NCBI GenBank assembly: GCA_031296105.1
Contig: JARLGJ010000033.1
Span: 1 to 64,000 of the forward strand
Length of the DNA: 64,000 bases
From: Acidobacteriota bacterium
GTDB taxonomy: Bacteria; Acidobacteriota; Terriglobia; Terriglobales; Acidobacteriaceae
Direction of reading: 5' to 3'
In this document: in pieces, positions 16,698 to 64,000 of the stretch
Position numbering within the stretch: the stretch's first letter is position 1
Layout of the letters: the number at the start of each line of letters is the position of its first letter
The notes under the pieces: model-generated
Told to the model about the DNA's origin: nothing
The model's input: the letters and a program-made list of their open reading frames with translations, nothing else
Databases searched by the model: none
Translations under genes and position numbers: made by a program

Positions 16698-18842
16698 TTA
16701 GTCGCCCATCACTTCTTCTTCCTTCTTGGCATCCGGCTTGGCGAGGGGCTGCACTCCGGGCTTGGAGCCCAGCGTGTCCAGACTGACGAAGCTGCCCACC
16801 TCGGCCGGCTTCTCGCCCAGCACATGCTGACGGTAGAGAGCCATCATCTTGGCCTTCTCGGCCTCCTGCTTGATGCGCTCGCTGTCCTTCAGCTTGGCAT
16901 CGCGGGCGCGGGTCTTCTCCTCGCGGGCGGTCTTGGCAATGCCCAGGTCGTCCAGCGTGTGGTTACGCCCGGCGTGTACGTGCTCCTGGTTCAGCGTCAG
17001 CGAGTGAGCCGTGCTTTCCAGGCCCACCTGTTTGTTGCCGGCAAATATCTCGTGGCGGCCGTGCTCCTCGTACCACTTGGTCAGGGTGGCCGTCATGTGC
17101 ATCTTCTCGATGATGTTGCGCCAACCCACGCCGGTGTTGTAGGCACAGAAGCTGATCTCGCCCTCCTGCGTGGCGTAGGGAATGATGCACTGCTCGGTGC
17201 GGCGGAAGTCGTAGTTGAACAGATCCTGGAACCACATGCCGGCCACGAACAGGAAGTTCCAGCGGTCGGCGCGGCGCTTCTGAATGTCGGTCATGGTGCG
17301 TCCCGGCGAGCTCTTGCCGTACTTCGCTTCGGCCTTCTTGGTAGCCGCAAACGTCTTATCGAACTTCTTCAACAAGTCGGTGAACTTGAAGTGCGTCGGC
17401 GACAGGAACGGGTTGTAGTTGCGCGCCAAGGCCAGGGCCATGCCCAGATTGCTCCAGCGAGCGCCGCGTCCGCCGTCGCTGACGTGGGCCACGTCCCTGG
17501 CCACCTGCTCGGCGTTGATGAACTTCGTCACCGGCACGGCTTCCTTGGTCTCCTTGTCGATCATCAGGGCCATACCCACGCCGCAGTTCGGATGGCAGCC
17601 GCAGTTGAGCGAGCCCCAGTCCTTCTCCTGCCCGTGCACCACGTCGGCCCAGTCGCTGAAGGTGCCCATAAAGCTGATGGGGAACCAGTCGCGAGCGGGC
17701 TCGCCCAGGCCGGTCTGGTCCTTCACGTCGTGTGCCAGGTGGCTGAGCGTGTAGCGCTGCGCCTGGCGGCGCTCGTCGGTAATTTCCTCGTCGCGGCCGG
17801 TAAACGATACTGGCTGGAAGCTGAGGAAGCTGATCTTCTTCGGATTGTCCAGCGCGAACTGGATGATGCGGCCCACCTGCTCGTTGTTCACGCCGTTCAC
17901 GATGGTCGTCACCGGCACAATCTCCACGCCGGCGGCGTGCAGGTTCTCAATCGCGCGCAGCTTGACGTCAAACAGGTTGCCTACCGCGCGATGCGCATTG
18001 GCGGCGTTGCCGATGCCATCAAACTGAAGGTATGCGTAGCGCAGACCGGCTTCGGCGGCCTTCTTGCAGAACTCCGGAGACTTGGCAAACTCAATGCCGT
18101 TGGTGGCCGCCTGCACCGAGTTGTAACCCACCTTGCGGGCGTAGGAAACGGCCTGCAGGAAGTAGGGCGACAGCGTCGGCTCGCCGCCCGAAAACTGCAC
18201 GCTCATCTGGCGGCGCGGCTTGATGCTGATGGCGTTGTCGAGCAGTCGCTGAATGTCTTCCCAGCTCAGTTCGTGGACAAAGCCCACCTGGTTGGCGTCC
18301 ATGAAGCAGGGATCGCACATCATGTTGCAGCGGTTGGTCAGATCGACGGTCAGCACCGAGCCGCGGCCGTACTTCACCGTGGAGGTGCCGTGGTTGTGCA
18401 GCTTCTCGTCGTTGTGCGCCCGCATGTCGCGCCCAGGGAACGTCTCTTCCAGGTGGCGGAAGAACGTGGTGTCCATGGCCATCACATCTTCAAAGTGGCC
18501 ATGCTTGGGGCAGTCCTTCACCATCAGGATCTTGCCGTCGCGCTCGATGATCTGCGCCTTGATCTCGCCGACCTTTTCGTTGAGCAGAATCTCGTAGGGC
18601 AGCTTGCCGTCCACAATCTGCTGGCGAATCTCAGGCACGCACTTGGGACACAAAGAGTCCGTGGTGCGCGGCCAGCCCAGCGGCGGCTTCGTCTTCTGAT
18701 AGCTCTTCAACAGCGGCTTGTCCGCCCACTTGGGCGTAATGGCGGGCTTCTGGTTGATGCTGTTCAGCCCGTCATAAATCACCCAGGCACCCTTGGCCAC
18801 ATAGGTGAATGCCTTCTCCACATACTTAATCGGCTTATGCAT
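16698..18842 (-). CDS. Second Tes-like radical SAM protein, long form
   Basis: A 714-residue radical SAM protein, paralogous in layout to the one at 12421-14076. It has CPKC (65-68), CPKHGHF (111), the AdoMet motif CNMMCDPC (172-179), MSVQFSGGEPTLSP, and SFLSFQPVSFTGR, matching WQPVSFTGR in the shorter paralogue. It lacks the CPxDCGxC motif; that position reads HNHGTSTVKYGRG. The C-terminal Cys elements are kept (GCHPNCGVG, EQCIIPYA, SFCAYNTGVG). About 110 extra C-terminal residues are charged and helical. ATG 18842 follows AGGAGACAGCGCTTC. It may act with the shorter paralogue in membrane-spanning lipid synthesis. The reaction is inferred. Confidence 0.62.
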   Translation of the reverse strand: MHKPIKYVEKAFTYVAKGAWVIYDGLNSINQKPAITPKWADKPLLKSYQKTKPPLGWPRTTDSLCPKCVPEIRQQIVDGKLPYEILLNEKVGEIKAQIIERDGKILMVKDCPKHGHFEDVMAMDTTFFRHLEETFPGRDMRAHNDEKLHNHGTSTVKYGRGSVLTVDLTNRCNMMCDPCFMDANQVGFVHELSWEDIQRLLDNAISIKPRRQMSVQFSGGEPTLSPYFLQAVSYARKVGYNSVQAATNGIEFAKSPEFCKKAAEAGLRYAYLQFDGIGNAANAHRAVGNLFDVKLRAIENLHAAGVEIVPVTTIVNGVNNEQVGRIIQFALDNPKKISFLSFQPVSFTGRDEEITDERRQAQRYTLSHLAHDVKDQTGLGEPARDWFPISFMGTFSDWADVVHGQEKDWGSLNCGCHPNCGVGMALMIDKETKEAVPVTKFINAEQVARDVAHVSDGGRGARWSNLGMALALARNYNPFLSPTHFKFTDLLKKFDKTFAATKKAEAKYGKSSPGRTMTDIQKRRADRWNFLFVAGMWFQDLFNYDFRRTEQCIIPYATQEGEISFCAYNTGVGWRNIIEKMHMTATLTKWYEEHGRHEIFAGNKQVGLESTAHSLTLNQEHVHAGRNHTLDDLGIAKTAREEKTRARDAKLKDSERIKQEAEKAKMMALYRQHVLGEKPAEVGSFVSLDTLGSKPGVQPLAKPDAKKEEEVMGD

Positions 18843-51618: not shown

Positions 51619-51707
51619 CATATCTCTATGAATCACAAATTAAGCATGTGATTCAGTCAGTAAAGCGGTTAATCCGAAGCAGTTTGTGGGTTCCGTCTCT
51701 GACCGGT

Positions 51708-51822
51708 GTCTCCTAAAGGCGTTGCTTGCCCAAGGGGGCGCAGGCGGTGGTCGATCTTCGCAGGAAATCGATCCCAGGGTCGCGCGGGAAACCGCACTTC
51801 CTCCCGTATTTGGAAAGGAGAC
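51708..51822 (+). ncRNA. Molybdenum-cofactor (moco) riboswitch-like leader of moaA1
   Basis: The 3' end reads CTCCCGTATTTGGAAAGGAG, matching the end of the E. coli moaA moco RNA (as recalled: CUCCCGUAUCUGGAAAGGUG). Closing stem GTCTCCT (51708-51714) pairs perfectly with AGGAGAC (51816-51822), which includes the ribosome-binding site of ATG 51826. A CCAG element (51774-51777) can pair with TTGG (51810-51813), where E. coli has CCAG/CUGG. A hairpin GCGCGG-GAAA-CCGCAC (one mismatch) lies between. Cofactor excess would be expected to hide the ribosome site. Confidence 0.8.
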
Positions 51823-51825
51823 CAG

Positions 51826-52848
51826 ATGAGCTTTAACGGTTTTTCATTGCACGGTAAGCCAGGCGGACTTCCGGAGTTGTTATATTCCGGACCGCCACAG
51901 TTATCCAAAATTCACACCTTGCGCGTCTCCGTTACCGAACGCTGCAATTTCCGTTGCCAGTACTGCATGCCTGCCTCGGGCGTGCAATGCACTCCACACA
52001 AGGAACTCCTGACTTTTGAGCAGCTCTTTGAAAATGTGGAGTGGATTGCCAAACGCACCGCGATTGAGCACATCCGCCTGACCGGCGGCGAACCGTTGGT
52101 TCGCGAGGGCATTCACCACATGATTGCCATGCTCTCGTCTCTACCGCATTCCCCGGAAATTACCATGACGACCAACGGCACGCTGCTGGCCAGGCAGGTC
52201 TGGGCGTTGAAGGCGGCCGGACTCCGGCGCGTGAATGTATCCCTCGATACGCTGAATCCCATGCGCTTCTCACACCTGACGCGCGGCGGCCGTCTGGAAA
52301 ACACCGTGGCGGGCATCGATGCGGCACTGAAAGCCGGGCTGACGCCGTTGAAACTGAACGCCGTGTTGCTGGCATCGAGCTGGCAGGAGGACGTGCCGCA
52401 GTTAATCCAGTTTGCCGCCGACCGCGGCGTGGAAGTTCGCTTCATCGAACTGATGCGCACTGGCACTGAATATGAATGGTGCGCTTCCGAGCAGGTGACG
52501 GTGGAGACCGTGCAGGACTGGCTCTCCGGACACGCTCAATTCCGTTGTCTCACGTCCAGCAAGAGTTCTCCGGAGGCGCGCACCCTGGTGAACTGGAAGG
52601 GGCGCGATGTGTCCGTCGGCTGGATCTCTCCGCGTTCGCACCCATTCTGCGCGTTCTGCGATCGTCTGCGTATCGATGCTCGCGGTCAACTTCGCCGTTG
52701 TCTGATGGATGGAGCAACTCTCAACCTCCCAATGGCGCGATCGGGCGGCGACCTGCACGCACACAATGCGTTCTGCAAATACCTGACTGGCAAACACCCG
52801 CCGGGCGCAATGGAAATGGAGCAGTCCATGTGCCAGATCGGCGGGTAA
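51826..52848 (+). CDS. moaA: GTP 3',8-cyclase MoaA (copy 1)
   Basis: A 340-residue radical SAM enzyme making 3',8-cyclo-GTP, the first step of molybdopterin synthesis. AdoMet motif CNFRCQYC (40-47), GGEPLVR, the C-terminal [4Fe-4S] motif CAFCDRLRIDARGQLRRC, and the essential C-terminal Gly-Gly (CQIGG) are all present. ATG 51826 follows AAAGGAGACC; a longer frame to 51706 runs through the riboswitch and is rejected. Its leader carries the moco-like RNA and a sigma54-type promoter. It heads an operon of iron-sulfur electron carriers, which links cofactor making to this particular pathway. Confidence 0.95.
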   Translation: MSFNGFSLHGKPGGLPELLYSGPPQLSKIHTLRVSVTERCNFRCQYCMPASGVQCTPHKELLTFEQLFENVEWIAKRTAIEHIRLTGGEPLVREGIHHMIAMLSSLPHSPEITMTTNGTLLARQVWALKAAGLRRVNVSLDTLNPMRFSHLTRGGRLENTVAGIDAALKAGLTPLKLNAVLLASSWQEDVPQLIQFAADRGVEVRFIELMRTGTEYEWCASEQVTVETVQDWLSGHAQFRCLTSSKSSPEARTLVNWKGRDVSVGWISPRSHPFCAFCDRLRIDARGQLRRCLMDGATLNLPMARSGGDLHAHNAFCKYLTGKHPPGAMEMEQSMCQIGG

Positions 52849-52967: not shown

Positions 52968-53609
52968 ATGGAAAAGAACGAGAAGAAAAGCACAACATTA
53001 GAGATAAAGGGAGTCGAGCGCCGCACCCTGATGAAAGGGTTAGGGTGTGTCGGCGTGACGCTGGCACTGGGCCCCGCGGCCTTGAGCCTCGTTCCCGGCG
53101 AGGTTAAGCACAGCAAACTCATCCGCCCTCCCGGCGGCCAGGTGGAGCGGCGTTTTTCCTCTCTCTGCGTTCGCTGCAATCGCTGCCAGGAGGCCTGCCC
53201 ACGCCACGTAATTGCGACGGCACACCTGGGCGACGGCCTGCTGGCGGCGCGCACGCCGAAACTCGACTTCACACTCGGCTACTGCGACTTCTGCATGAAG
53301 TGCGTGGACGTTTGCCCGACCAACGCTCTGGCACGCGTGGATAAAAAAACAACCCACATCGGAATTGCAGTCATCCTCAAGGACCAGTGCATCCCCTGGC
53401 AGTGGGGCGGATGCACGCGCTGTTTTGAGAAGTGCCCGGAGAAGGCCATCCGTCTCGACGATCAGAAGCGGCCATACATTGATCCCGCGAAGTGTAACGG
53501 TTGTGGACTGTGCGAGCAAATCTGCCCGGCGACCGAGTTGCGCTCTTATCAGCCTGGCCAGACGCGCGGAGTTGAGATTGTCCGCCTGGGCAGCAGGATT
53601 GAGGCGTAA
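52968..53609 (+). CDS. NapG/MauM-type Tat-exported ferredoxin
   Basis: A 213-residue periplasmic ferredoxin. A Tat-like signal (ERRTLMKGLGCVGVTLALG) precedes four cluster motifs: CVRCNRCQEACP, CDFCMKCVDVCP, CTRCFEKCP, and CNGCGLCEQICP. NapG passes electrons from membrane NapH to a periplasmic oxidoreductase. ATG 52968 follows AGGAGAGATTGAGTA. It is co-oriented with moaA1 (119 bp gap), then NapH-like (8 bp) and polyferredoxin genes; all four are probably one transcript. The expected electron acceptor is the molybdoenzyme encoded divergently. Confidence 0.88.
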   Translation: MEKNEKKSTTLEIKGVERRTLMKGLGCVGVTLALGPAALSLVPGEVKHSKLIRPPGGQVERRFSSLCVRCNRCQEACPRHVIATAHLGDGLLAARTPKLDFTLGYCDFCMKCVDVCPTNALARVDKKTTHIGIAVILKDQCIPWQWGGCTRCFEKCPEKAIRLDDQKRPYIDPAKCNGCGLCEQICPATELRSYQPGQTRGVEIVRLGSRIEA

Positions 53610-53617
53610 GCGAAGCT

Positions 53618-54550
53618 ATGCAGAAACAGACCCGTGCCCATCAATTGCGAACCATCTCCATTGTTGCCGTGGCGGCGCTGGCCGTTGCCGGAGCGATGAA
53701 GAACATTGCGATCGGTTCATTATCCGGATTCGGGGTGAAAGGCATCTCTGCCATTTGCCCGCTCGGCTACCTGGAAACGCTGCTGGCCAGCCGCCTGATG
53801 ATGCCGCGATTGTTACTTGCCTTCGCCGCCATCGTGATTTCAGTAGTCATTCTTGGCCGCATCTTTTGCGCCTGGATGTGTCCGATACCGCTGATCAAGC
53901 GCTTTCTGCCCAAGCCCGCCGCCAATAAGCCGGCGGCCAGCGCGCCGGACGTGGCGGAAAACTCCGGCCAGGACTTCTCTCTTCCCAGCGGAGTGCGTTT
54001 GCCCATTCTTCAATCGGAGATACGGACCACCTCGCCGGAACCCACCAACCGCAGCGAACGCGATACGCCAGGCCGTACCTCCTCCACCGGTCTGCTCGTG
54101 CTGGGCGGCACGCTGTTATCGTCGGCGATCTTCGGCTTTCCCGTGTTCTGCCTGGTCTGCCCCATTGGTCTCACCTTCGCCACGCTGTTCGCCATTATTC
54201 GTCTCTTTCATTTCAACGAGCCCACAATGGACTTGATCCTGTTCCCGGCGATCATTGCCGCCGAACTCCTGTTGCTGCGCAAATGGTGCAGCCGCATCTG
54301 CCCGGTGGGCGCGCTGCTATCGCTCGCCGGCAAATTGAATCGCTCCCTGGTGCCCACCGTGGATGCCAAGCGCTGCCTCGCCTTGAGCAGCGGCACAAAG
54401 TGCGACCTCTGCCGCACCTCCTGCGACTATGAAATTGATCTGAAGGCGTCCCAGGCCGATTCCAGGGTCAACCAGTGCACCAAGTGCCGCGAGTGCGCCG
54501 AACGGTGTCCGGTTCACGCAATCCACTTCCCTCTCTGGAAGAGAACCTAA
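53618..54550 (+). CDS. NapH/MauN-type membrane quinol dehydrogenase with iron-sulfur clusters
   Basis: A 310-residue inner-membrane protein with about four helices (TISIVAVAALAVAGAM, LLLAFAAIVISVVILGRIF, LVLGGTLLSSAIFGFPVFC, LILFPAIIAAELLLL). Cys clusters CAWMCPIPL and CSRICPVGALL follow the NapH pattern. Near the C terminus CDLCRTSCDYEID and CTKCRECAERCPVHAI hold two [4Fe-4S] sites. NapH-type proteins oxidise menaquinol and pass electrons to NapG-like partners. A Pro/Ser-rich insert (about 105-165) with no family match sits in the middle. Confidence 0.85.
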   Translation: MQKQTRAHQLRTISIVAVAALAVAGAMKNIAIGSLSGFGVKGISAICPLGYLETLLASRLMMPRLLLAFAAIVISVVILGRIFCAWMCPIPLIKRFLPKPAANKPAASAPDVAENSGQDFSLPSGVRLPILQSEIRTTSPEPTNRSERDTPGRTSSTGLLVLGGTLLSSAIFGFPVFCLVCPIGLTFATLFAIIRLFHFNEPTMDLILFPAIIAAELLLLRKWCSRICPVGALLSLAGKLNRSLVPTVDAKRCLALSSGTKCDLCRTSCDYEIDLKASQADSRVNQCTKCRECAERCPVHAIHFPLWKRT

Positions 54551-55716
54551 TGCTTTCGAAACTTGAGATCTTCAGCGAATCATGCGCCCTGATGGACCAG
54601 CGTGGCATAGTCGTCCGCAACGAGCTATGCCTGCACACGCGCCACCAGGCCAGCGACTGCCTGCGTTGCTCCTCGGTATGCCCGACAGGGGCAATCCGTT
54701 TTGACAACGGACTCGTCTTCACCGCCGGAGAGTGCTCCGGATGCGGCGCCTGCACGACGGTATGCCCCAGCGGAGCCCTCAGCGGGAAACTTCCTTCGAA
54801 CGCCGAAGTTCGCCAGGCAGTGAAGCGCCACATTGCACTCTCCGGCGCAGTGGCCTTCGCCTGCGAAACCTGGCTTGACGAACATCCAGCGGAGCGCGAC
54901 CGGGTGGTAGCTCTGCAATGCATCGCGCGGCTGGACGAGTCCGTTCTGGCGGACGCGGTGCTCGGCGGCGCCGCACAAGTCGCAATCCTCGACGGCGCCT
55001 GCGCGCAGTGCCCACAGGGTAAGCTGCGCCGACTGGCGCAGCACACGGCCGACACCGTCAACAACTTGCTTGGCCATTGGCAGTACAAATCCGCCATCGC
55101 AATTTCTCACGAAGTGCCAACGGAACTTCGCGCGTTGCCGCCGGCACAGGATCAAACTGCTGGCGTTTCACGGCGCGGATTCTTCAGCTTCCTGCGCAGT
55201 CGTGGCGCCGGCCTTGCCTCCACGGCTTTACCCGGCATGTTGAGCGTGGCGCTCGGGCGCCGCGAAGATAATCCCAACGCAAATCGTCTTGTCTCCGGGC
55301 AAACGAAGATGGAACCGGAGCGGCATCGGCATCTGGTGGACGCTCTGCGAAAATTGGCCACGACGCCGCTGCCCAAGGAATTCGCAAGCAAGCTGTGGGC
55401 GGAGTTGAGCATTACGCCGGACTGCATTGGGTGCGCGGCCTGTGCCGAGGCGTGTCCAAGCGGCGCTCTGGCCGCTGTAACTTGTGACGCCCTGTGGGGA
55501 ATCTTTCACGAGTCATCGCGCTGCACGCATTGCGGCCTGTGCGTAAACATTTGCCCGCGTAAATGCATCCAGATGGATTCCACCGTCATGCTCGACCTGC
55601 TGCTGAAGCAGCAACCCCGGCTGTTGGCCGGCAAAGACCGCAAAGAGGTCGAGAACCTCTCCGAGCCGATGGCCTCCCGCGTTGCGCGCATGTTTGAAGG
55701 AGTGGTTCACTGGTAG
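54550..55716 (+). CDS. Polyferredoxin with internal twin-arginine motif
   Basis: A 388-residue protein with two [4Fe-4S] pairs. The N-terminal pair is CLRCSSVCP and CSGCGACTTVCP; the C-terminal pair is CIGCAACAEACP and CTHCGLCVNICP. A middle domain (about 85-190) has isolated Cys (FACETW, DGACAQCPQGK) reminding one of HybA/DsrK-like electron-transfer proteins. At about 205 a Tat-like motif SRRGFFSFLR is followed by a hydrophobic GLASTALPGML stretch, so it may be an internal signal or a fusion of two ancestral proteins. ATG 54550 overlaps the NapH stop (TAATG). It is the last gene of the moaA1 operon. Confidence 0.75.
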   Translation: MLSKLEIFSESCALMDQRGIVVRNELCLHTRHQASDCLRCSSVCPTGAIRFDNGLVFTAGECSGCGACTTVCPSGALSGKLPSNAEVRQAVKRHIALSGAVAFACETWLDEHPAERDRVVALQCIARLDESVLADAVLGGAAQVAILDGACAQCPQGKLRRLAQHTADTVNNLLGHWQYKSAIAISHEVPTELRALPPAQDQTAGVSRRGFFSFLRSRGAGLASTALPGMLSVALGRREDNPNANRLVSGQTKMEPERHRHLVDALRKLATTPLPKEFASKLWAELSITPDCIGCAACAEACPSGALAAVTCDALWGIFHESSRCTHCGLCVNICPRKCIQMDSTVMLDLLLKQQPRLLAGKDRKEVENLSEPMASRVARMFEGVVHW

Positions 55717-55718
55717 GC

Positions 55719-55764
55719 AGAGCGGTTACGCACGCGATGGAAATTGAGATCGCGGAACCGCTCT
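55719..55764. terminator. Long hairpin between the convergent moaA1 operon and moaA2
   Basis: Outer arms AGAGCGGTT (55719-55727) and AACCGCTCT (55756-55764) and inner arms CGCGAT (55733-55738) and ATCGCG (55749-55754). No T run follows. It sits between converging genes and overlaps the moaA2 stop region. Confidence 0.5.
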
Positions 55765-56785
55765 AACCGCCGATCTGGCACATCCCCTTATCGATCTCCA
55801 TCCCTCGGGGCGCGTGCTTTTCCGCAAGATAATCGAAGAACGCCAACTCCGCCTGCTTCTCGCCCAGAGACCGTATCCCGGGAAGATTGAACGTAGCCGG
55901 ATCCATCAGGCAGCGCCGCACTCGTCCGCAAGCGTCAATGCGCAGGCGGTCGCAGTCTTTGCAGAACGGCTGCGACCGCGGCGTGATCCAGCCCACGCTG
56001 AGGTCGTGTCCGTACCAGCGCACAATGGTATTGGCAGAAGGGGAACTGGCGCGAACAGGCATCGGGTATATCCCCGCACGCCTGGCGAGCCAGGCCTGAA
56101 CAACATCAACCGTCACCAGTTCGGACGCGCACCAACTGCGCTCAGTGCCCGTGCGCATTAGTTCAATAAAGCGTATTTCCACATTCTGCATAGCCGCATA
56201 ATCGAGCAGCCGCGGCACATCCTCCTGCCAGCTTGTTCGCTGCAAGACGGCGTTGAGCTTCACCGGCGTCAGACCGGCGCGAATCGCCTCATTGATACCT
56301 GACAGCGTATGCCACAGGTGGCCGCCGCGCGTCAGCGTTGTAAAACGCTGCGGATTCATCGTATCCAGAGAAATGTTGACCCGGCTGACGCCCGCGGCCT
56401 TCAATGCCCATACCTGGTGGGCCAGCATTGCGCCATTCGTCGTCAGGGAAACTTCCGGCATATCCGGCAAGGCCGTGAGCCGGGCAATTAGGTGATGAAT
56501 TCCCCGGCGCACCAGCGGTTCGCCGCCGGTCAGCCGCACTCTTTGAAGGTCCGTGCGGTGCGCAATCCACTCCACGTTTTCGTACAGTTCTTCGAGAGAA
56601 AGCAATTCCTCGTGCGGCAGCCATGCGACGCCCTTGGATGGCATACAGTAGAGGCAGCGGAAGTTGCACCGATCCGTGACCGAGACGCGAAGCGAGTGAA
56701 TCCTCGATAATCGCCGCGGCTCGGAGTGCGAAGCTCCACGGCTTGCCCCGGGCGTTACATGCGAAAAGGATTCGGACGGACCCAT
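55763..56785 (-). CDS. moaA: GTP 3',8-cyclase MoaA (copy 2)
   Basis: A 340-residue radical SAM enzyme, the same length as copy 1 and about two-thirds identical by eye. It has CNFRCLYC, GGEPLVR, CKDCDRLRIDACGRVRRC and the C-terminal Gly-Gly. ATG 56785 is used (MGPSESFSHVTP); TTG 56788 is in frame and adjacent. Its own sigma54-type promoter (56975-56990, minus) and the matching palindrome at 57064-57075 lie upstream. The leader is about 180 nt, as for copy 1, but it does not keep the CTCCCGTAT signature of the riboswitch. Two copies of moaA in one region are unusual and hint at differently controlled cofactor supply. Confidence 0.93.
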   Translation of the reverse strand: MGPSESFSHVTPGASRGASHSEPRRLSRIHSLRVSVTDRCNFRCLYCMPSKGVAWLPHEELLSLEELYENVEWIAHRTDLQRVRLTGGEPLVRRGIHHLIARLTALPDMPEVSLTTNGAMLAHQVWALKAAGVSRVNISLDTMNPQRFTTLTRGGHLWHTLSGINEAIRAGLTPVKLNAVLQRTSWQEDVPRLLDYAAMQNVEIRFIELMRTGTERSWCASELVTVDVVQAWLARRAGIYPMPVRASSPSANTIVRWYGHDLSVGWITPRSQPFCKDCDRLRIDACGRVRRCLMDPATFNLPGIRSLGEKQAELAFFDYLAEKHAPRGMEIDKGMCQIGG

Positions 56786-56974
56786 CAAATCTCCAATCCA
56801 GAACTTACTGGAAGGTATCGTATTTCACCCGGACCGTGGCTCGCCGCGTCAACAAGGGCCTCGCCCAGCCGCTGTCTTCATCGGACCACGGCCCGCATTA
56901 CCACCCGCATCTCCACTCGAGTTGGCGGCGCGGAGTGAGTGAACAACCTGCTTTGTTTCGTTGATGAAATTAAC

Positions 56975-57323: not shown

Positions 57324-58154
57324 CTACACTTCTTTTACCGGCTCCGGCTTCCGGATGCGATGGCGCGAGTGTGGCAGCGCCGCCTCCGAGTGACGGCGCA
57401 ACCCAATCAATTCCGCCGTCACGGATATGGCAATCTCCTCTGGCGTTACCGCTCCAAGTTGCAGTCCAATCGGCGCGTAAACCTTGTCCAGCACTTCCCG
57501 CCGCACGCCTTCTTCTTCCAACTGATGGAAGAGCGTGAGCACCTTGCGGCCCGACCCGATCATGCCGATGTAGCACGCGCTGGTATCCAGAGCCCAGCGC
57601 AGCACTCTCAGGTCATGCTGGTGCCCGCGTGTAACGATTGCAATATAAGAGCTGTCCGAAGGCGATAGCTGGGACATGATCTGGTCCATGTCTCCGTTAT
57701 AAATATCCAGCGCATCCGGGAAGCGCTCCCGGTTCGCATATTCCTCGCGATCGTCGGCCACGGTCACTTCAAAACCCGCAATCACGGCAACCTTGTACAG
57801 GTTCAGCCCCACATGTCCAGCGCCAAAAATATACAGGTGCGGAGAGGGTATCAAGGGTTCGATAAACACTTGCAGCGAGCCTCCGCAAACCAGCCCGGTA
57901 TCGTCATCCGGACGCTGATTCAGATTGAAGTTAAAGGTTCGCGGCTTCTCGTCTTTCATTACTTCATGCGCGCCCTTCCGCACTTCATTCTCAATGCACC
58001 CGCCGCCAATCGTGCCGAGAATCGAACCATCGTCGCGCACCAGCATCTTGGAGGCTGTTGCCGACGGAATCGAGCCCTGAACGTTCACGATGGTTGCCAG
58101 TGCCGAACGTCTTCCCTGCCGCTTAAGATTGCTGATCTCTTCATAAATATCCAT
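57324..58154 (-). CDS. XdhC-family molybdenum-cofactor maturation protein
   Basis: A 276-residue protein. The N-terminal XdhC domain has VNVQGSIPSATASKMLVRDD and ILGTIGGGCIENEV; the C-terminal Rossmann part has LYIFGAGHVGLNLYKVAVIAG and VTRGHQHDLRVLRWALDTSACYIGMIGSGRKV. XdhC binds molybdenum cofactor and protects it while the terminal sulfur is added, in concert with a cysteine desulfurase (the gene upstream here). The gene closes a six-gene overlapping operon (NTP transferase to XdhC). The protein could mature a molybdenum hydroxylase not in this window or the oxidoreductase at 46.4 kb. Confidence 0.9.
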   Translation of the reverse strand: MDIYEEISNLKRQGRRSALATIVNVQGSIPSATASKMLVRDDGSILGTIGGGCIENEVRKGAHEVMKDEKPRTFNFNLNQRPDDDTGLVCGGSLQVFIEPLIPSPHLYIFGAGHVGLNLYKVAVIAGFEVTVADDREEYANRERFPDALDIYNGDMDQIMSQLSPSDSSYIAIVTRGHQHDLRVLRWALDTSACYIGMIGSGRKVLTLFHQLEEEGVRREVLDKVYAPIGLQLGAVTPEEIAISVTAELIGLRRHSEAALPHSRHRIRKPEPVKEV

Positions 58155-58187
58155 GATTTTCCCTCCAACACCCTCTCCAGCCCCTTA

Positions 58188-59357
58188 CTACTTATGCACA
58201 ACAACGCCCTGTGTTTCTGAGCTAAAAGATGTTCTGGCCCGCAGTGTCTCCACGGCCTTGGGAAGCACTGTAATCAACAGGTCGATGTCGCTTTCAACGT
58301 TCATTTTGCCCAGGCTGAAACGGATGCTGGATCGTGAACGCTCGCCGCCGACTCCCATCGCCATCAATACACTTGAAGGCTCGGCCTCTCCGGAGTTACA
58401 AGCCGCTCCGCGTGAAGCCGCGATATCCTGTTCGTCCAGTGCCAGCACCAAAGCGTCTCCCCCTACATGGTCAAAATAAATGTTGGAGGTATTCGCCACG
58501 CGCGGCGCGGTGCGGGCGTGCACGCCACAATCAGGAATTTGCGCCAGCACTGCTTCTTCCAGTTTGTTTCTCCACTCTTCAATGCGCTTCATGGACCCAT
58601 CTTGCAATCCCTCGAACGCTAACTCACAAGCACGCCCCAGGCCGGCGATACCCGCAATGTTTTCGGTCCCAGGACGTTTTCCTCCCTGCTGATGCCCACC
58701 ATGCAACAAAGGACGAAGCGGAGTTCCACGCCGCACGTAAAGCGCTCCAATCCCCTGGGGTCCGTTGAATTTGTGCGCGGTGATCGTCAGCAAATCGCAG
58801 CCGATCCGGTCCACGTCGATCGGCGTCTTACCTACGGCCTGCACGGCGTCGGTGTGAAACCAGATATCCGCATCCGTGGCAATCTTTCCAATCTCTTCCA
58901 CCGGCTGCAGAACGCCCGTCTCGTTATTCGCCGCCATGATCGAGATAAGCCGGGTATTAGTCTTGATGGCTTGGCGCACGCTCTCCGGCTCCACTTGCCC
59001 TTTGCCGTTCACGCCCACGCGCGTCACTTCGCATCCGGTATGTTCAAGGTAGCGGCACATCTCCAGCACTGCCCCGTGCTCAATGACCGACGTGATGATG
59101 TGGTCTCCAGCGTGTACCATTCCAGCCAGAGCCATGTTGTCGCCTTCCGTGCCGCCGCTGGTGAATAGGATCTCCGTGGGTTGGCAGCCCAGCAATTTGG
59201 CCACGGAGGTCCGCGCCTCCTTCACCGCCGCCAGGGTCCGCCTTCCGCATACATGAATCGAAGAGGGATTGCCGAATTTTTCTGTGAAGTATGGCAGCAT
59301 CGCTTTCAGCACTTCAGGATGCACCGGGGTCGTTCCGTTATTGTCCAGGTAGATCAT
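58188..59357 (-). CDS. Cysteine desulfurase (NifS/IscS type)
   Basis: A 389-residue PLP enzyme that removes sulfur (or selenium) from cysteine (or selenocysteine). The N terminus MIYLDNNGTTPVHPEV, the PLP lysine in TAHKFNGPQGIG, and the active-site Cys in RGAACNSGEAEPSS are all seen. The Cys lies in an extended flexible loop, as in NifS/IscS. It lies between the histidine phosphatase and xdhC genes in an operon on molybdenum or related cofactor modification, so a specific sulfur donor role is more likely than general iron-sulfur assembly. Confidence 0.92.
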   Translation of the reverse strand: MIYLDNNGTTPVHPEVLKAMLPYFTEKFGNPSSIHVCGRRTLAAVKEARTSVAKLLGCQPTEILFTSGGTEGDNMALAGMVHAGDHIITSVIEHGAVLEMCRYLEHTGCEVTRVGVNGKGQVEPESVRQAIKTNTRLISIMAANNETGVLQPVEEIGKIATDADIWFHTDAVQAVGKTPIDVDRIGCDLLTITAHKFNGPQGIGALYVRRGTPLRPLLHGGHQQGGKRPGTENIAGIAGLGRACELAFEGLQDGSMKRIEEWRNKLEEAVLAQIPDCGVHARTAPRVANTSNIYFDHVGGDALVLALDEQDIAASRGAACNSGEAEPSSVLMAMGVGGERSRSSIRFSLGKMNVESDIDLLITVLPKAVETLRARTSFSSETQGVVVHK

Positions 59358-59372
59358 CCACGCCCTCTCTTC

Positions 59373-60032
59373 TCACCGCGCCCTCTGCAGGGCGCCTTCA
59401 ATGGAACTTACTGATGCCAGGCCGCGGTTTTCATAAGGGGAGTAATTCAATAAATGCAAGCGCTGCCGCCCCTCGCCATACTCGATCATGTTGACGCAGC
59501 CATAGTCCTGTCGGATGTTCATCAGGTTTTGCACCGGCAACCCAAGAGCGTCGCAGAGGATAAGACGGTTCACTCCGGCATGTCCCACCAGAATCACGTT
59601 TCCGTAAGAGTTATCGAGTATCCTGCGAAGCATTGGCAATACCCGCGAGCGGCAATCAGCAAAGCTCTCTCCACCGGGCGGACGCCAGTTTTCAAGATCG
59701 CGCCCACGCGCCTCGTATTGCTCCGGATGCTGCTGGGCAATTTCCCGGAAGCTAACTCCCTCCCAATCGCCAAGGCTGATCTCGCGAAGCTCCGGAAAGG
59801 GCTGTAACACTAAGTCGCGCTGACCAATTACAATCCGTGCGGTTCGTTCAGAGCGGGTCAGGTCGCTGCAATACGCGTGGGAGAAATCCACGGGTTCCAG
59901 CCAGTTCCTCAGCGCCCAGGCCTGCTCCACTCCGCGCTCGCTAAGTGGCGCCTGAATCTGCCCGATGTAGTGTTTGCCGTTCACCGAAATCACCGCGCCG
60001 TGGCGCGCGAGATATAAATACGTGAGCTTCAT
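59373..60032 (-). CDS. Histidine phosphatase superfamily protein
   Basis: A 219-residue phosphatase. The catalytic RHG motif is in LYLARHGAV (9-11), SDLTRSERTA is the second conserved region, and the C-terminal HAGVNRLIL carries the second catalytic His. Its overall shape resembles alpha-ribazole phosphatases and phosphoglycerate mutases. It overlaps the ligase stop by 4 bp (ATGA). As I recall, the same phosphatase-ligase-TrsS-NTP transferase set occurs next to an aldehyde oxidoreductase gene in Desulfovibrio (DVU1551-1559), but its substrate is not known. Confidence 0.85.
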   Translation of the reverse strand: MKLTYLYLARHGAVISVNGKHYIGQIQAPLSERGVEQAWALRNWLEPVDFSHAYCSDLTRSERTARIVIGQRDLVLQPFPELREISLGDWEGVSFREIAQQHPEQYEARGRDLENWRPPGGESFADCRSRVLPMLRRILDNSYGNVILVGHAGVNRLILCDALGLPVQNLMNIRQDYGCVNMIEYGEGRQRLHLLNYSPYENRGLASVSSIEGALQRAR

Positions 60033-61363
60033 AACTCTGTGAGCACCTCGATTTTTCTTTTCTCACCGGAGAATGCAAACGGTTGCGAAACAGCCATGAC
60101 TTCCACCGACAAACAGCCCCTGCGCACGGCTCTTCCTATTGCAGGAATCCCATCATGCAACGCCGCATTAGCCTGCGATAGTGCATGTGTATCGCCAAAC
60201 GGCAGGCAGCAAGTAACTTCCAGGTGTTCATTTGCGCCACGGACCAAGCGGGCTTTAAAGTCCACCACCCCGGGAATGGCGAATAACACTTCATCCAGAT
60301 CGGTGATCGATATTTTTCCTTCTTCCCCAAGACTTACGCCGCCCTTCGTGCGGCCCTGAATTCTTTCCAGGTTACGAAGCTCCGAGCCGCACGGGCAGCC
60401 GTTTGCGGAAAAGCGGGACAAATCTCCTGTGCGATAGCGAATAAGCGGCATCGCCTCTCGGGTCAATGTCGTAAACACCACCTCGCCGGTCTCTCCGTCC
60501 GGCAATGTTCTACCGCTTTCGGGGTCCACAATCTCAAACAAGAGGTCGGCTTCGCGCAAGTGATAGCCGCAATGTGCCTCGCAATCCACGCCGCCGCCCA
60601 TCCCCATTTCCGTCATTCCGTAATGCTCGTACACCTCGCAACCACATAGCGCTTGCAGACGCTGCACAAGCGGCCCGGGCACATAGTCGCTGCACACCAC
60701 AACGCTGTGCAGCATCGTAAGGGCCTCTTCTGCAAGCGCACTGCGTTGACTGGCCAGCCACAGCATCTGTACGGGGAAGCCAATCATGCACGTGGCCTTT
60801 TCGCGTACCACCGTCTGCAGAGTCTCTTCTGCCCGCTCAATCAATCCATGCAATACCGGTCTTACTCCGGCGCGGCTTATGCCTTCCGCGAGCAATGACC
60901 CAACACCACCCTGTCGCTGCCCCGGCAACGCGATAAGCATAGTGTCTGCATTACCCGCTAAAGTAGCGACTCCATGCGCGAAGAAGTCCAGGGTCCGCTC
61001 CTGGTCGGCTGCGCTAAAATACAATCTCTTAGGTTCACCGCTGGTGCCACTGCTGGTTAACGTGACAATGTGCGCTATCGCATCCTGCGACACACACACG
61101 AACCTCCCTTGCTCGCTTGCCAGCTCCGCCGCGTTGGTAAAGGGGATGCGCTGCAAGCCTCCGGGCAGTTCGATCCTCTGGGCATCGACGTCTTTCAAAT
61201 GTTCGCGATAAAACGGTGAGTTCTTTTTTGCGCGGATTAGTGTCTCGCGCAGCTTGAGCGTCTGATATTCCTGCAGTGACTGCCGAAGACAGTCGCCTCC
61301 GGTAATGCCGTTAATCCAGGCATCCAGCGGACTCTTATGCAGGTTGGTAGGCAAATGACTCAC
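60029..61363 (-). CDS. DVU_1553-family AMP-dependent CoA-ligase-like protein
   Basis: A 444-residue adenylate-forming enzyme related to phenylacetate-CoA ligase. The AMP-binding P-loop LTSSGTSGEPKRLYFS is near 115, YEHYGMTEMGMGGGVDC near 255, and YRTGDLSRFSANGCPCGSELRNLERIQGR split around the hinge carries the conserved Asp/Arg. Cys residues (DCEAHCGYH, CPCGS) may bind zinc as in PaaK. It probably activates a carboxylate as an acyl-AMP or thioester. GTG 61363 overlaps the TrsS stop (GTGA). Whether the acid is a small metabolite or part of a cofactor is unknown. Confidence 0.82.
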   Translation of the reverse strand: MSHLPTNLHKSPLDAWINGITGGDCLRQSLQEYQTLKLRETLIRAKKNSPFYREHLKDVDAQRIELPGGLQRIPFTNAAELASEQGRFVCVSQDAIAHIVTLTSSGTSGEPKRLYFSAADQERTLDFFAHGVATLAGNADTMLIALPGQRQGGVGSLLAEGISRAGVRPVLHGLIERAEETLQTVVREKATCMIGFPVQMLWLASQRSALAEEALTMLHSVVVCSDYVPGPLVQRLQALCGCEVYEHYGMTEMGMGGGVDCEAHCGYHLREADLLFEIVDPESGRTLPDGETGEVVFTTLTREAMPLIRYRTGDLSRFSANGCPCGSELRNLERIQGRTKGGVSLGEEGKISITDLDEVLFAIPGVVDFKARLVRGANEHLEVTCCLPFGDTHALSQANAALHDGIPAIGRAVRRGCLSVEVMAVSQPFAFSGEKRKIEVLTEL

Positions 61364-62799
61364 GGCTTACCTTCCAACGCAGGGCTAGCCGTGCCACACC
61401 CACGATACAAGCTTTGTCCGCCAGCGGCAGTAAGGTTATACGCACACAGAGGCACCAGATTCTCGTCTGGCGACAGCACATGCAGAAAGCATTCCTTCAG
61501 GCGGCGCAGATCAAGATTCCACGCATCCTGAAAGGCCATTGCCGAAATACAGAACGTCTGTCTATGCTCCGCCAGGAAAGCATCCATGCTGTTCAAGTCC
61601 AATCCTGGAGAGCACTCTTCGGGCTCTTCCGGCATCGCCCAGTGACGAGCCACAAAGTTCCTCGCCCGCCTTGCGCCTTCGCCATTACCGTCGGGAACGG
61701 CTCCGAGTTGCACCAACCCGGCATCCACTGGAGGAGCGCAGCACGAATTCTTAGGACGTCCGCAGGAATCCACCCGGCCATCCGAATGCACAAGGAACTT
61801 TCCGTGAAATTCGCAGAAAGCGTTTTCTCCCGATGCAGGATACAAATCGCAGGCGCGGAAGAGTCCGCCGGTTTGTAATTCAATGGCGCGCATAATCTCT
61901 GGCAACGTTATGCGGTCTTCGTTGCGTGGTTCAGACGGATAACGTCCAAAATAACTTACTGGCTGGAAGTGCACCGCCCGCACCGTGGGGGCATAATGCA
62001 ATGCCAGCTCGAGGATTGCGCCAATCTCGCCGGTATTAACTCCTGGGACGAGCGTGGGAACCAGCACCACCCCCAGTCCGCATGTCGAGCAATTACGTAT
62101 CGCCTTCAGCTTTTTCGCACGCAGGTCGCGACCGCGGATACTCCGGTGGGCTTCAGCCGTCACCCCATCAAACTGAAGAAATACGCAGCCTAGGCCGGCA
62201 TCCTTAAGTTGCCTCGCATACTCCTTATCTTCTCCAAGGCGCAGCCCATTTGTATTCAACTGCACAAATTCAAATCCTTCGCTGCGCACCAGTCTTACAA
62301 TCTCTGGAACATCATCGCGCACCGTTGGTTCGCCGCCTGAGAGTTGCACATTGTAGGGACCGCCTTTTTCAAGCAGCCGCCTGCACCAGCGGCGAATGTC
62401 CTCCAGTCCCGGTTCATCCGTCCTCGACTCAGCGCCAGAGCGGGCAAAGCACACTGGGCAGCGCAGATTGCAACGCTGTGTTACTTCTAGAATTACACAA
62501 CAAGTATGCTGACGATGTTCTTCGCATAACCCGCAATCATACGGGCAGCCGAGGCCGCTCGACGGCTGGCAGGATGGCGGACAAGACGGGACAATCTTCG
62601 CCGACTCCCATTGCCGGTATGTTTCCAATCCGCGCCAAAGGATTGTTTTGAACTCGCCGTGTTCCGGGCATTGCTTCTCCAGGTATATGTCATCGCCCCT
62701 GGCAACACGCCTGGCCGCGATGCGCGATAAGCACTGCGGACAGACGCTTTCTGTCTCACTAAGCTCAACCGCTTTGCCTGTACAGTCCTCAGTCTTCAT
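61360..62799 (-). CDS. trsS: TrsS-family radical SAM protein
   Basis: A 479-residue radical SAM protein of the same superfamily as the Tes-like proteins at 12.4 and 16.7 kb. It has CPQC (20-23), CPEHGEF (44), CPYDCGLC (about 85-92), AdoMet motif CNLRCPVC (about 109-116), VQLSGGEPTVRDD, and HFQPVSYFGRYP. C-terminal Cys (KNSCCAPP, KECFLHV, VPLCAYNLT) fit an added cluster. The family is known under NCBI naming as TrsS, at times a selenoprotein; here a Cys pair, not an in-frame TGA, is at the KNSCC site. The reaction is unknown. It lies with NTP transferase, ligase, phosphatase, cysteine desulfurase and XdhC genes. Confidence 0.8.
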   Translation of the reverse strand: MKTEDCTGKAVELSETESVCPQCLSRIAARRVARGDDIYLEKQCPEHGEFKTILWRGLETYRQWESAKIVPSCPPSCQPSSGLGCPYDCGLCEEHRQHTCCVILEVTQRCNLRCPVCFARSGAESRTDEPGLEDIRRWCRRLLEKGGPYNVQLSGGEPTVRDDVPEIVRLVRSEGFEFVQLNTNGLRLGEDKEYARQLKDAGLGCVFLQFDGVTAEAHRSIRGRDLRAKKLKAIRNCSTCGLGVVLVPTLVPGVNTGEIGAILELALHYAPTVRAVHFQPVSYFGRYPSEPRNEDRITLPEIMRAIELQTGGLFRACDLYPASGENAFCEFHGKFLVHSDGRVDSCGRPKNSCCAPPVDAGLVQLGAVPDGNGEGARRARNFVARHWAMPEEPEECSPGLDLNSMDAFLAEHRQTFCISAMAFQDAWNLDLRRLKECFLHVLSPDENLVPLCAYNLTAAGGQSLYRGCGTASPALEGKP

Positions 62800-63992
62800 G
62801 AGTTATGCTCCTGCGCATTTTGCAATGAACAGTGCTCTGGTGGTTCATCGCGCAGTAAGAACTCATGCAGTCTCATCCCAATGCACTGCTCTAATGCATG
62901 GGCAATTGATTCAGCATTCTTCTTCCGTATCGAGGCGGCTTCAAGGGCGGCGGGGTTATCTCGGAACCGCTCCATCGTGCGTGCAAACCGCTGCTCTAAG
63001 CCGATATACTTTTCGCCGCCAATCAATTTATCGGCCAGATATACAATCGCAGCCTCGCTCAACACGCATCCATCCACGGGGTAGTCATGGTGCACGGCAG
63101 CGATATCGGCGACTTCTAGGAATTCCAAATAACGAAGCAAGGATGCCGCTGATTCGGCGTGATCTTTCGTTCCTCGCGCAAGATCGTGTAACAGCCCGCC
63201 GGCCCGAGCAAGCTCGGGGTCCACCTCGGCACCGCCGTCTGCTGCGCCAATGGCCAGCCGGAAGGCAGCGTCTCCCACCGCCCGGCAATGCTGAATGACC
63301 CTCTTTTCAGGTTGATAATAGGAAAGTAATGCTTCACACTCGCGCACACTCGGAATATATCGGCGCGGCGCCAGCTCTTGCATGTCAACATATTGCACTG
63401 GAGTGTCCATATCAAGCAGGATGGCTTCATCCGGAACAAACAAATTACAGGCCTCTGCTTCATGAGCAGCCAACAGGGTGGAGAGCCGGTCATCATTGGG
63501 CATGATGAACACTTCGTCGAGCACCCGGCGCGCAATCAGCGGTGGATGACCCCTTTGTCCGTCAAAACTGGGATACACAACAGCCGTTTCACGGCCATGC
63601 CGGAAGCGCAATATTCTGCGCAACGTTGACGGTCGCACAAGTGGCATGTCCACCGGCATTACAAAACAGGCTTTACATGACGCTGGAAGCGCACTAACCC
63701 CAGCTCTAACAGATGAAAACATCCCAGTGGCGTAGTTAGCATTGTGAACGCGCCGCGCGCCGGCCGCCTCCGCTACAGCGACAATCTCACCCGCGCGATG
63801 GCCCGTAACCACAACCACATCCTCAACTCCTGCCTCCAGAAACAAGTGCACTGCGCATTCTAGTGCTGTGCGCGTTTCCAACGGTAGCAGTGGTTTAAAG
63901 GCACCCATGCGGGAGGAATATCCAGCTGCAAGGATGATTGCAGAGACTCCCGCCGCAGCTATTTCAGATCGATTCAGGGCGGGTAAAGTCAT
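62796..63992 (-). CDS. DVU_1551-family MobA-like NTP transferase fused to an HD domain
   Basis: A 398-residue two-domain protein. N-terminal (about 15-205) is a MobA/MocA-type nucleotidyltransferase: AIILAAGYSSRMGAFKPLLP is the nucleotide motif, followed by VVVTGHRAGEIV and MPVDMPLVRPSTL with the metal Asp. C-terminal (about 245-370) is an HD hydrolase-like domain: HCRAVGDAAFRLA, GLLHDLARGTKDHAESAA, HHDYP. MobA and MocA add GMP or CMP to molybdopterin; the HD part may cleave a phosphate ester. First gene visible of the operon; it starts 8 bp from the window edge, so partners may lie upstream. Confidence 0.85.
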   Translation of the reverse strand: MTLPALNRSEIAAAGVSAIILAAGYSSRMGAFKPLLPLETRTALECAVHLFLEAGVEDVVVVTGHRAGEIVAVAEAAGARRVHNANYATGMFSSVRAGVSALPASCKACFVMPVDMPLVRPSTLRRILRFRHGRETAVVYPSFDGQRGHPPLIARRVLDEVFIMPNDDRLSTLLAAHEAEACNLFVPDEAILLDMDTPVQYVDMQELAPRRYIPSVRECEALLSYYQPEKRVIQHCRAVGDAAFRLAIGAADGGAEVDPELARAGGLLHDLARGTKDHAESAASLLRYLEFLEVADIAAVHHDYPVDGCVLSEAAIVYLADKLIGGEKYIGLEQRFARTMERFRDNPAALEAASIRKKNAESIAHALEQCIGMRLHEFLLRDEPPEHCSLQNAQEHNS

Positions 63993-64000
63993 AGTCGCTT

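Follow-up and report, generated by a model that had tools for sequence, protein, structure and literature searches.

Within a 64,000-nt stretch of Acidobacteriota DNA (contig JARLGJ010000033.1, positions 1 to 64,000; here termed the window), genes of the Trs type, among them one for the radical SAM protein TrsS, are joined to genes for a cysteine desulfurase and XdhC. This arrangement raises the question of whether the operon produces a new modification of the molybdenum cofactor, as proposed in the initial annotation, or a different product. In the literature, we found no assigned function for TrsS, a named family of radical SAM (seleno)proteins. The annotated gene identities and the link to the DVU1551-1557 set of Desulfovibrio were borne out by our analysis, whereas the new cofactor modification was not.

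Gene content and extent of the operon

All six ORFs were verified between positions 57324 and 63992 on the minus strand (Table 1). As annotated, the genes overlap or nearly touch, with 4-base overlaps at three junctions and gaps of 15 and 33 bases at the others. They represent the downstream portion of an operon that continues beyond window position 64000 on a contig of 89,512 bases. The upstream part encodes an aldehyde oxidoreductase (AOR), its FAD/Fe-S partner, a 70-aa zinc-ribbon protein, an ArsM-like methyltransferase, and a C-GCAxxG-C-C protein. Methyltransferase, C-GCAxxG-C-C gene, and AOR had all been predicted to lie there.

Table 1. Genes of the operon, with coordinates and supporting matches.
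Feature	Position	Strand	Match
XdhC-family AOR maturation factor, last gene of operon	57324..58154	-	XdhC_C 141 bits; XdhC_CoxI 76 bits
NifS/IscS-type cysteine desulfurase	58188..59357	-	TIGR03402 487 bits (below cut-off 530.75)
CobC-like histidine phosphatase	59373..60032	-	His_Phos_1 182 bits; TIGR03162 161.7 (cut-off 162.9); RHG and GHAG motifs
DVU1553-family AMP-forming ligase (PaaK/F390-synthetase-like), GTG start	60029..61363	-	NF045666 436 bits (cut-off 300)
TrsS radical SAM protein	61360..62799	-	NF045646 626 bits (cut-off 490); PF23545 71 bits
DVU1551-family NTP transferase, MocA-like, C-terminal HD domain	62796..63992	-	NF045665 404 bits (cut-off 315)
C-GCAxxG-C-C gene (DVU1555 family), 3' end in window	63964..64000 (start at contig position 64410, outside window)	-	NF045669 166 bits
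DVU1556 ArsM-like methyltransferase	64416-65108	-	NF045667 191 bits
DUF7479 (DVU1557) gene, hidden, 70 aa, zinc ribbon	65105-65317	-	
FAD/dicluster protein	65317-67647	-	NF045663 969 bits
AOR, MOP-type	67796-70543	-	NF045668 1531 bits

NCBIfam models for these families already exist. TrsS, the NTP transferase-HD, the AMP ligase, the methyltransferase, the C-GCAxxG-C-C protein, DUF7479, the FAD/dicluster protein, and AOR all scored above the curated cut-offs, and all are encoded in one operon. The identities of the six window genes are strong. XdhC reached 290 bits against NF045664, under the curated cut-off of 350, while its XdhC domains themselves are clear and the conserved CGG cysteine is C90. 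The cysteine desulfurase has its PLP-Lys in HKF at 195 and the active-site Cys in ACNSG at 319, and the AMP ligase carries TSSGTSG, YGMT, and YRTGD. TrsS displays an N-terminal zinc ribbon, the CxxxCxxC motif, and Gly at a position that in 51 of 88 alignment rows holds Cys or Sec. The initially suggested donation of selenium to the cofactor is therefore not indicated here. The NTP transferase-HD (motif LAAGYSSRM) scored 149 bits against the MocA CTP:molybdopterin cytidylyltransferase model TIGR03310, under its cut-off of 186, and is the sole MocA-like gene of the genome (next match, 43 bits). AOR is likewise the only XO-family enzyme, and both are encoded inside the operon.

The gene set is kept in Acidobacteriota, Chloroflexota, Bacillota, Thermodesulfobacteriota, Myxococcota, and Pseudomonadota, and this conservation indicates that it is not due to chance. 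We concluded that the operon is a complete set for MOP-type aldehyde oxidation, gained by horizontal acquisition, plus an unexplained helper pathway.

Association of TrsS with molybdenum and tungsten enzymes

The initial annotation had made its interpretation depend on a link between TrsS and molybdoenzymes, and this link was found: TrsS nearly always lies beside a molybdoenzyme. It occurred with a MOP-type AOR in 37 of 41 loci with full flanks, in 102 of 106 AOR-bearing genomes of Desulfovibrionales after correction, and in all 15 AOR-bearing genomes of Sporomusales. Apparent AOR-only and TrsS-only genomes of Desulfovibrionales were examined as counter-examples. TrsS was present in G454, G502, and G513; the locus was cut by contig ends in G437 and G515; G447, G449, and G451 allowed no call either way; and G374, with AOR alone, is an exception to the link. 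In Sporomusales genome G562, Trs genes are present and a match to MOP-type AOR was not found at E <= 1e-300. XdhC is frequent (27/41 full-flank loci), whereas a desulfurase of the same subfamily is only occasional (7/41 other full-flank loci) and was gained or lost at least five times on the TrsS tree.

Besides MOP-type AOR and DUF7479, the partners of TrsS in some lineages are tungsten AFOR and DMSO-reductase-type enzymes. At L132, the Trs core (DUF7479, TrsS, methyltransferase, and AMP ligase) is in an operon with tungsten AFOR, ferredoxin, and MoeA, without MOP, and both XdhC and a MocA-like gene are absent. The core further adjoins AFOR at six loci (L087, L137, L139, L140, L058, L059) and DMSOR-type enzymes at L115 and L205, the latter with TupA. 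The tight AOR link, and the assignment by homology of the NTP transferase and XdhC to MCD (molybdopterin cytosine dinucleotide) maturation, would fit an ordinary role of all Trs proteins in folding or insertion of plain MCD. We regard this as hardly credible: E. coli PaoABC obtains MCD via MocA and PaoD (PMC2997495), a scheme with no place for a radical SAM enzyme, a ligase, or a methyltransferase, and the AFOR-linked module lacks MCD genes.

The MocA-like NTP transferase is fused to TrsS at L069 and L090 and to the AMP ligase and phosphatase at L099, L100, and L124; in relatives, the histidine phosphatase is fused to the AMP ligase or the NTP transferase. These fusions suggest a common pathway or complex for the MCD-synthase and Trs steps. 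They are also in line with TrsS, methyltransferase, AMP ligase, and phosphatase building a labile ligand or an altered pterin on the Mo/W cofactor, to be inserted by XdhC. The frequency of XdhC and the repeated recruitment of the desulfurase point the same way, as do the metal-pterin common to the three enzyme classes beside Trs genes and the conserved cysteines of the ArsM-like methyltransferase (C43 in 60/61, C97 in 61/61). L132, without XdhC or MocA-like gene, and the low count of the desulfurase argue against such a modification, which we consider doubtful in view of the D. gigas enzyme described below.

DUF7479 occurred in 11 of 11 sampled genomes with Trs and in none of 31 without, the AOR-alone genome included, and thus follows TrsS, not AOR. 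Its free C-terminal tail has the pattern E-x-x-L-E-D-K, in which Glu at -3 and Lys at -1 do not vary (E-x-K end, 83/83), a lead for testing. At loci without the FAD/Fe-S part, DUF7479 and the C-terminal domain of the FAD partner are encoded beside TrsS as fused or paired small proteins. In a structure search for a family of this domain with DUF7479, RelE/BrnT-fold matches were too weak (best Z 6.9), and Foldseek gave no match at E <= 0.001. Literature on DUF7479 or the DVU155x genes was not found beyond lists. DUF7479 might be a protein substrate of TrsS, with its tail processed by TrsS, methyltransferase, and AMP ligase, as for PQQ or mycofactocin, into a redox cofactor linking the three classes of Mo/W oxidoreductases to electron acceptors; we consider this quite improbable.

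The cofactor of AOR and the product of the Trs proteins

AOR matched D. gigas MOP (PDB 1SIJ) with 1205 bits over 3-905 at ~60% identity; it is full-length, with both [2Fe-2S] domains, the Mo-site glutamate, and a conserved GVGE stretch. The D. gigas genome was identified by 100% identity to 1SIJ over 310 aa. Its locus (L188, L197) reads AOR-FAD/dicluster-DUF7479-MTase-CGCA-TrsS-AMP ligase-XdhC-HisP; the MocA-like NTP transferase-HD gene lies elsewhere in the genome, and no cysteine desulfurase was seen at the locus. A very well studied molybdoenzyme hence lives beside the Trs set, and Trs function is testable in tractable Desulfovibrio strains.

The set also bears on an oddity: a sulfido ligand is required in the enzyme family of AOR, yet D. 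gigas AOR is functional without one. Crystallized from native cells, this enzyme contained plain MCD with an equatorial oxo ligand, not sulfido, and it is active without the sulfido ligand (PMC3877041, PMC10223205). The D. gigas relative carries an ordinary cofactor despite the gene set, which argues that the product of the helper pathway is probably not a new form of the molybdenum cofactor; the observation concerns the relative's enzyme as isolated rather than AOR here, and a labile group is possible.

Another reading places AOR as one step in the breakdown of a particular compound, with the AMP ligase activating the resulting acid and TrsS, methyltransferase, and phosphatase acting on the same substrate. 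An outer-membrane-type DUF3034 protein heads the operon, a DhaR-like sigma-54 regulator is encoded close by, as in 11/41 other full loci, and a -24/-12 site (TGGCAC-N5-TTGCA) lies upstream. The operon is probably controlled by sigma-54, and these features would suit a catabolic pathway. However, the substrate range of D. gigas AOR spans many aldehydes (PMC3877041), the Trs core is retained beside unrelated oxidoreductase classes, and DUF7479 keeps company with TrsS rather than AOR, so that we regard this pathway as unlikely.

We tentatively favor a MOP-type aldehyde oxidation operon in which the Trs core serves to make or install an accessory group distinct from a modified molybdenum cofactor, a reading to which we give somewhat less than an even chance. 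By homology and genome content, several of its steps are well supported: AOR would oxidize aldehydes using MCD; the NTP transferase-HD is the sole candidate MCD synthase of the genome; XdhC, aided here by the desulfurase, would carry, protect, or sulfurate MCD and insert it in the usual way; and the FAD/4Fe-4S/double-CCG protein would receive the electrons. The accessory group may come from TrsS, methyltransferase, AMP ligase, and DUF7479 together with the C-GCAxxG-C-C protein and histidine phosphatase, and it would act in concert with the zinc ribbon of DUF7479 and the C-terminal domain carried by the FAD partner. From domain company, the group would most likely help electrons leave Mo/W oxidoreductases of several classes.

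Against a separate factor stand the NTP transferase fusions to TrsS, AMP ligase, and phosphatase; in addition, D. gigas AOR may lose a group on purification.

Relation to known systems

TrsS aligns with the tetraether lipid synthase Tes (PDB 7TOL) over the N-terminal zinc ribbon, radical SAM core, and C-terminal segment (304 bits). A tetraether lipid synthase assignment was rejected, with NF045702 at 368 bits below its cut-off of 450 and a molybdoenzyme as genomic company.

XdhC and NifS4 of R. capsulatus are a known bacterial pair for Moco sulfuration (PMC2997495), and the annotation of XdhC and the desulfurase as handlers of labile sulfur agrees with it. By their sequences, both partners appear alike here, with the conserved Cys in XdhC and PLP-Lys and active Cys in a NifS-type desulfurase. 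In contrast to that system, the partner enzyme here is an aldehyde oxidoreductase with MCD, and its D. gigas relative is active in the absence of a sulfido ligand.

D. gigas MOP (DgAOR; PDB 1SIJ, 1VLB), like AOR here, has two [2Fe-2S] domains and Mo domains, no FAD domain, and the active-site GVGE; the accessory genes differ in all being within one operon here, with a desulfurase added. A counterpart with the same gene families is the Desulfovibrio AOR-trs locus (DVU1551-DVU1559; NF045645, NF045646, NF045663-NF045669), whose XdhC is named aldehyde oxidoreductase maturation factor by NCBI. Compared to that locus, the operon described here has an added cysteine desulfurase, a different gene order, a shorter XdhC under the family cut-off, and a TrsS with Gly at the Sec/Cys site.

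The trs-type operon on both sides of position 64000

The six minus-strand genes that the initial annotation described at 57324-63992 (NTP transferase-HD, the radical SAM protein TrsS, AMP ligase, histidine phosphatase, cysteine desulfurase and XdhC) were all found at these positions. Three of their junctions overlap by 4 bases and the remaining gaps are 15 and 33 bases. The CobC-like phosphatase, the NifS-like desulfurase and XdhC (NF045664) scored just to moderately under their family cut-offs; the catalytic motifs of the desulfurase, phosphatase, ligase, TrsS and NTP transferase are all intact.

The window comprises the first 64,000 of the 89,512 bases of its contig. A search past its end for the methyltransferase and C-GCAxxG-C-C protein expected there recovered both, as members of the DVU1556 and DVU1555 families. 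The operon continues upstream to genes for a FAD/dicluster protein (FAD partner) and an MOP-type aldehyde oxidoreductase (AOR). The zinc ribbon gene DUF7479 lies between those of the FAD partner and the methyltransferase and is absent from an ORF list made at 80 aa. Farther upstream than AOR, genes for a DUF3034 protein and a DhaR-like activator occur on the same strand. A sigma-54 -24/-12 site, TGGCAC-N5-TTGCA, is located immediately upstream of the DUF3034 gene, which sits between this site and AOR. Such sites occur within 600 bases upstream of AOR in 5 of 50 loci, compared to 0.12 expected in shuffles.

Elsewhere in the window, two further radical SAM genes are relatives of TrsS and the tetraether lipid synthase Tes over the N-terminal 296 positions, and two MoaA-like genes bracket a run of iron-sulfur protein genes. 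Additional MoaA-like matches occur on other contigs of the genome.

Features of the trs-type operon and related genes on contig JARLGJ010000033.1
Feature	Position	Strand	Family or score
TrsS		minus	NCBIfam, 626 bits (cut-off 490)
DVU1551 NTP transferase		minus	NCBIfam, 404 bits (cut-off 315)
DVU1553 AMP ligase		minus	NCBIfam, 436 bits (cut-off 300)
DVU1555 C-GCAxxG-C-C gene	63964-64410	minus
DVU1556 methyltransferase	64416-65108	minus
DUF7479/DVU1557 zinc ribbon, 70 aa	65105-65317	minus	NF045645 and PF24292/DUF7479
FAD/NAD, 4Fe-4S, double-CCG protein	65317-67647	minus	NF045663
Aldehyde oxidoreductase	67796-70543	minus	NF045668
Sigma-54 site	71849
DhaR-like sigma-54 activator	72104-74098	minus
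Radical SAM gene	13057-13968	minus	302 bits
Radical SAM gene	17709-18566	minus	185 bits
MoaA-like gene	51706-52848		just over TIGR02666 cut-off
Iron-sulfur protein gene run	52968-55716
MoaA-like gene	55763-56788		just over TIGR02666 cut-off

Distribution of TrsS and its association with AOR

We performed a TrsS-anchored survey of 84,980 species, one genome each, which yielded 80 loci; as these resemble the query most closely, rarer arrangements are under-sampled. Gene content was counted in 41 loci flanked on each side by roughly 9.5 kb or more, excluding the window's own. The AMP ligase was present in 40 of these, the FAD partner in 39, the C-GCAxxG-C-C gene in 38, AOR and the methyltransferase in 37 each, XdhC and NTP transferase-HD in 27 each, the phosphatase in 22 and the desulfurase in 7. 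The TrsS tree implies five or more changes in desulfurase presence, indicating that this gene has been repeatedly recruited or lost. None of the 60 closest relatives has TrsS over the cut-off, and in the tree the window protein pairs with that of an Acidobacteriaceae MAG (100/97), adjoins Pseudomonadota and lies near Sporomusaceae. Such a scattered distribution, in mixed company, points to acquisition of the operon via horizontal transfer.

Raw searches of 170 Desulfovibrionales genomes detected AOR in 106, TrsS in 101 and both in 99 (Fisher p ~1e-35, uncorrected for shared ancestry). Three seemingly AOR-only genomes contain TrsS after all, and both TrsS-only genomes are truncated by contig ends. 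In Sporomusales, TrsS occurs in 15/15 AOR genomes. Where a TrsS locus has no AOR nearby, the genome mostly encodes one elsewhere: AOR over the cut-off was present in 17 of 21 such genomes checked. In Clostridium ragsdalei, one AOR locus (L202) retains a 41-aa TrsS remnant, with no methyltransferase or C-GCAxxG-C-C gene found there; the genome also has an intact TrsS at another locus (L094) and a broken second AOR copy.

Of 88 alignment rows of TrsS, 51 have Cys or Sec at the Sec/Cys position and the rest mostly Gly or Ala; the window protein has Gly. An in-frame TGA occurs in 4 of 6 TrsS genes over the cut-off from another genus of the same phylum. Selenium is therefore optional for TrsS and not used by the window protein.

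Proposed cofactor modification and the possible role of the Trs core

The trs-type set, desulfurase and XdhC had been proposed to carry out a new molybdenum cofactor modification. The D. gigas genome, recognised by a 100% AOR match across 310 residues, contiguously encodes AOR, FAD/dicluster protein, DUF7479, methyltransferase, C-GCAxxG-C-C, TrsS, AMP ligase, XdhC and phosphatase, with NTP transferase-HD elsewhere, away from this row. The AOR of the present operon is related over its full length to that of D. gigas (1205 bits). The native D. gigas enzyme contains pyranopterin cytidine dinucleotide and an oxo ligand in the equatorial position; it has no sulfido ligand and is active without one (PMC3877041; PMC10223205). 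Since D. gigas has both the gene set and this published cofactor, a stable new cofactor form is not the product of these genes in D. gigas. Possibly, the Trs genes add a labile group that is lost from the D. gigas AOR on purification; the best argument for cofactor modification is provided by fusions involving the MocA-like enzyme. In the window genome, NTP transferase-HD is the sole MocA-like gene product and AOR the sole protein with a MoCoBD_2 domain. NTP transferase-HD and XdhC account for ordinary maturation of molybdopterin cytosine dinucleotide (MCD). Natural fusions (L069, L090, L070, L099, L100, L124 and L117) join NTP transferase-TrsS, AMP ligase-phosphatase, AMP ligase-NTP transferase-phosphatase and methyltransferase-AMP ligase, so these enzymes probably act together.

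The Trs core (TrsS, methyltransferase, AMP ligase and DUF7479) is separable from the MCD genes. Locus L132 has the order AFOR (a tungsten enzyme), ferredoxin, MoeA, a fusion of the FAD partner C-terminal domain with DUF7479, methyltransferase, TrsS and AMP ligase, and its genome gave no match to MOP-type AOR. AFOR also adjoins Trs genes in L087, L058 and L059 and in the Sec-TrsS loci L137, L139 and L140. In L115 and L205 the same type of fusion is next to DMSO-reductase-type enzymes; L205, from the genome of L132, forms a run of MoeA, TupA, a formate-dehydrogenase-like Mo/W enzyme, C-GCAxxG-C-C and the fusion, with no TrsS in the stretch read. These small numbers are suggestive of a link of the Trs core to AFOR and DMSO-reductase-type enzymes.

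DUF7479 was detected in 11/11 sampled Trs genomes versus 0/31 others, one of which has AOR alone. Its 83 homologues end in a near-invariant LEDK (Glu -7 in 82, Leu -4 in 80, Glu -3 in 83, Asp -2 in 76 and Lys -1 in 83), with the stop codon directly after the Lys. The FAD partner C-terminal domain has no Pfam match, and its model weakly resembles the RelE/BrnT fold. It also occurs near TrsS as a small separate protein (L132:8787-9266, L115:4359-4847, L203:18004-18474, L138:8881-9357), which in some cases is joined to DUF7479 and in one genus carries a Tat-like signal. We infer that the Trs core would provide an accessory group or protein modification, acting via DUF7479 and this domain.

NCBIfam already models the gene families of the locus, and a review citing Haft and Tolstoy 2025 lists TrsS. 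The operon adds a further representative to a known type of locus, in which the desulfurase is uncommon. Points that may be new are the DUF7479 tail, the D. gigas argument and the links of the Trs core to W-AFOR and to DMSO-reductase-type enzymes.
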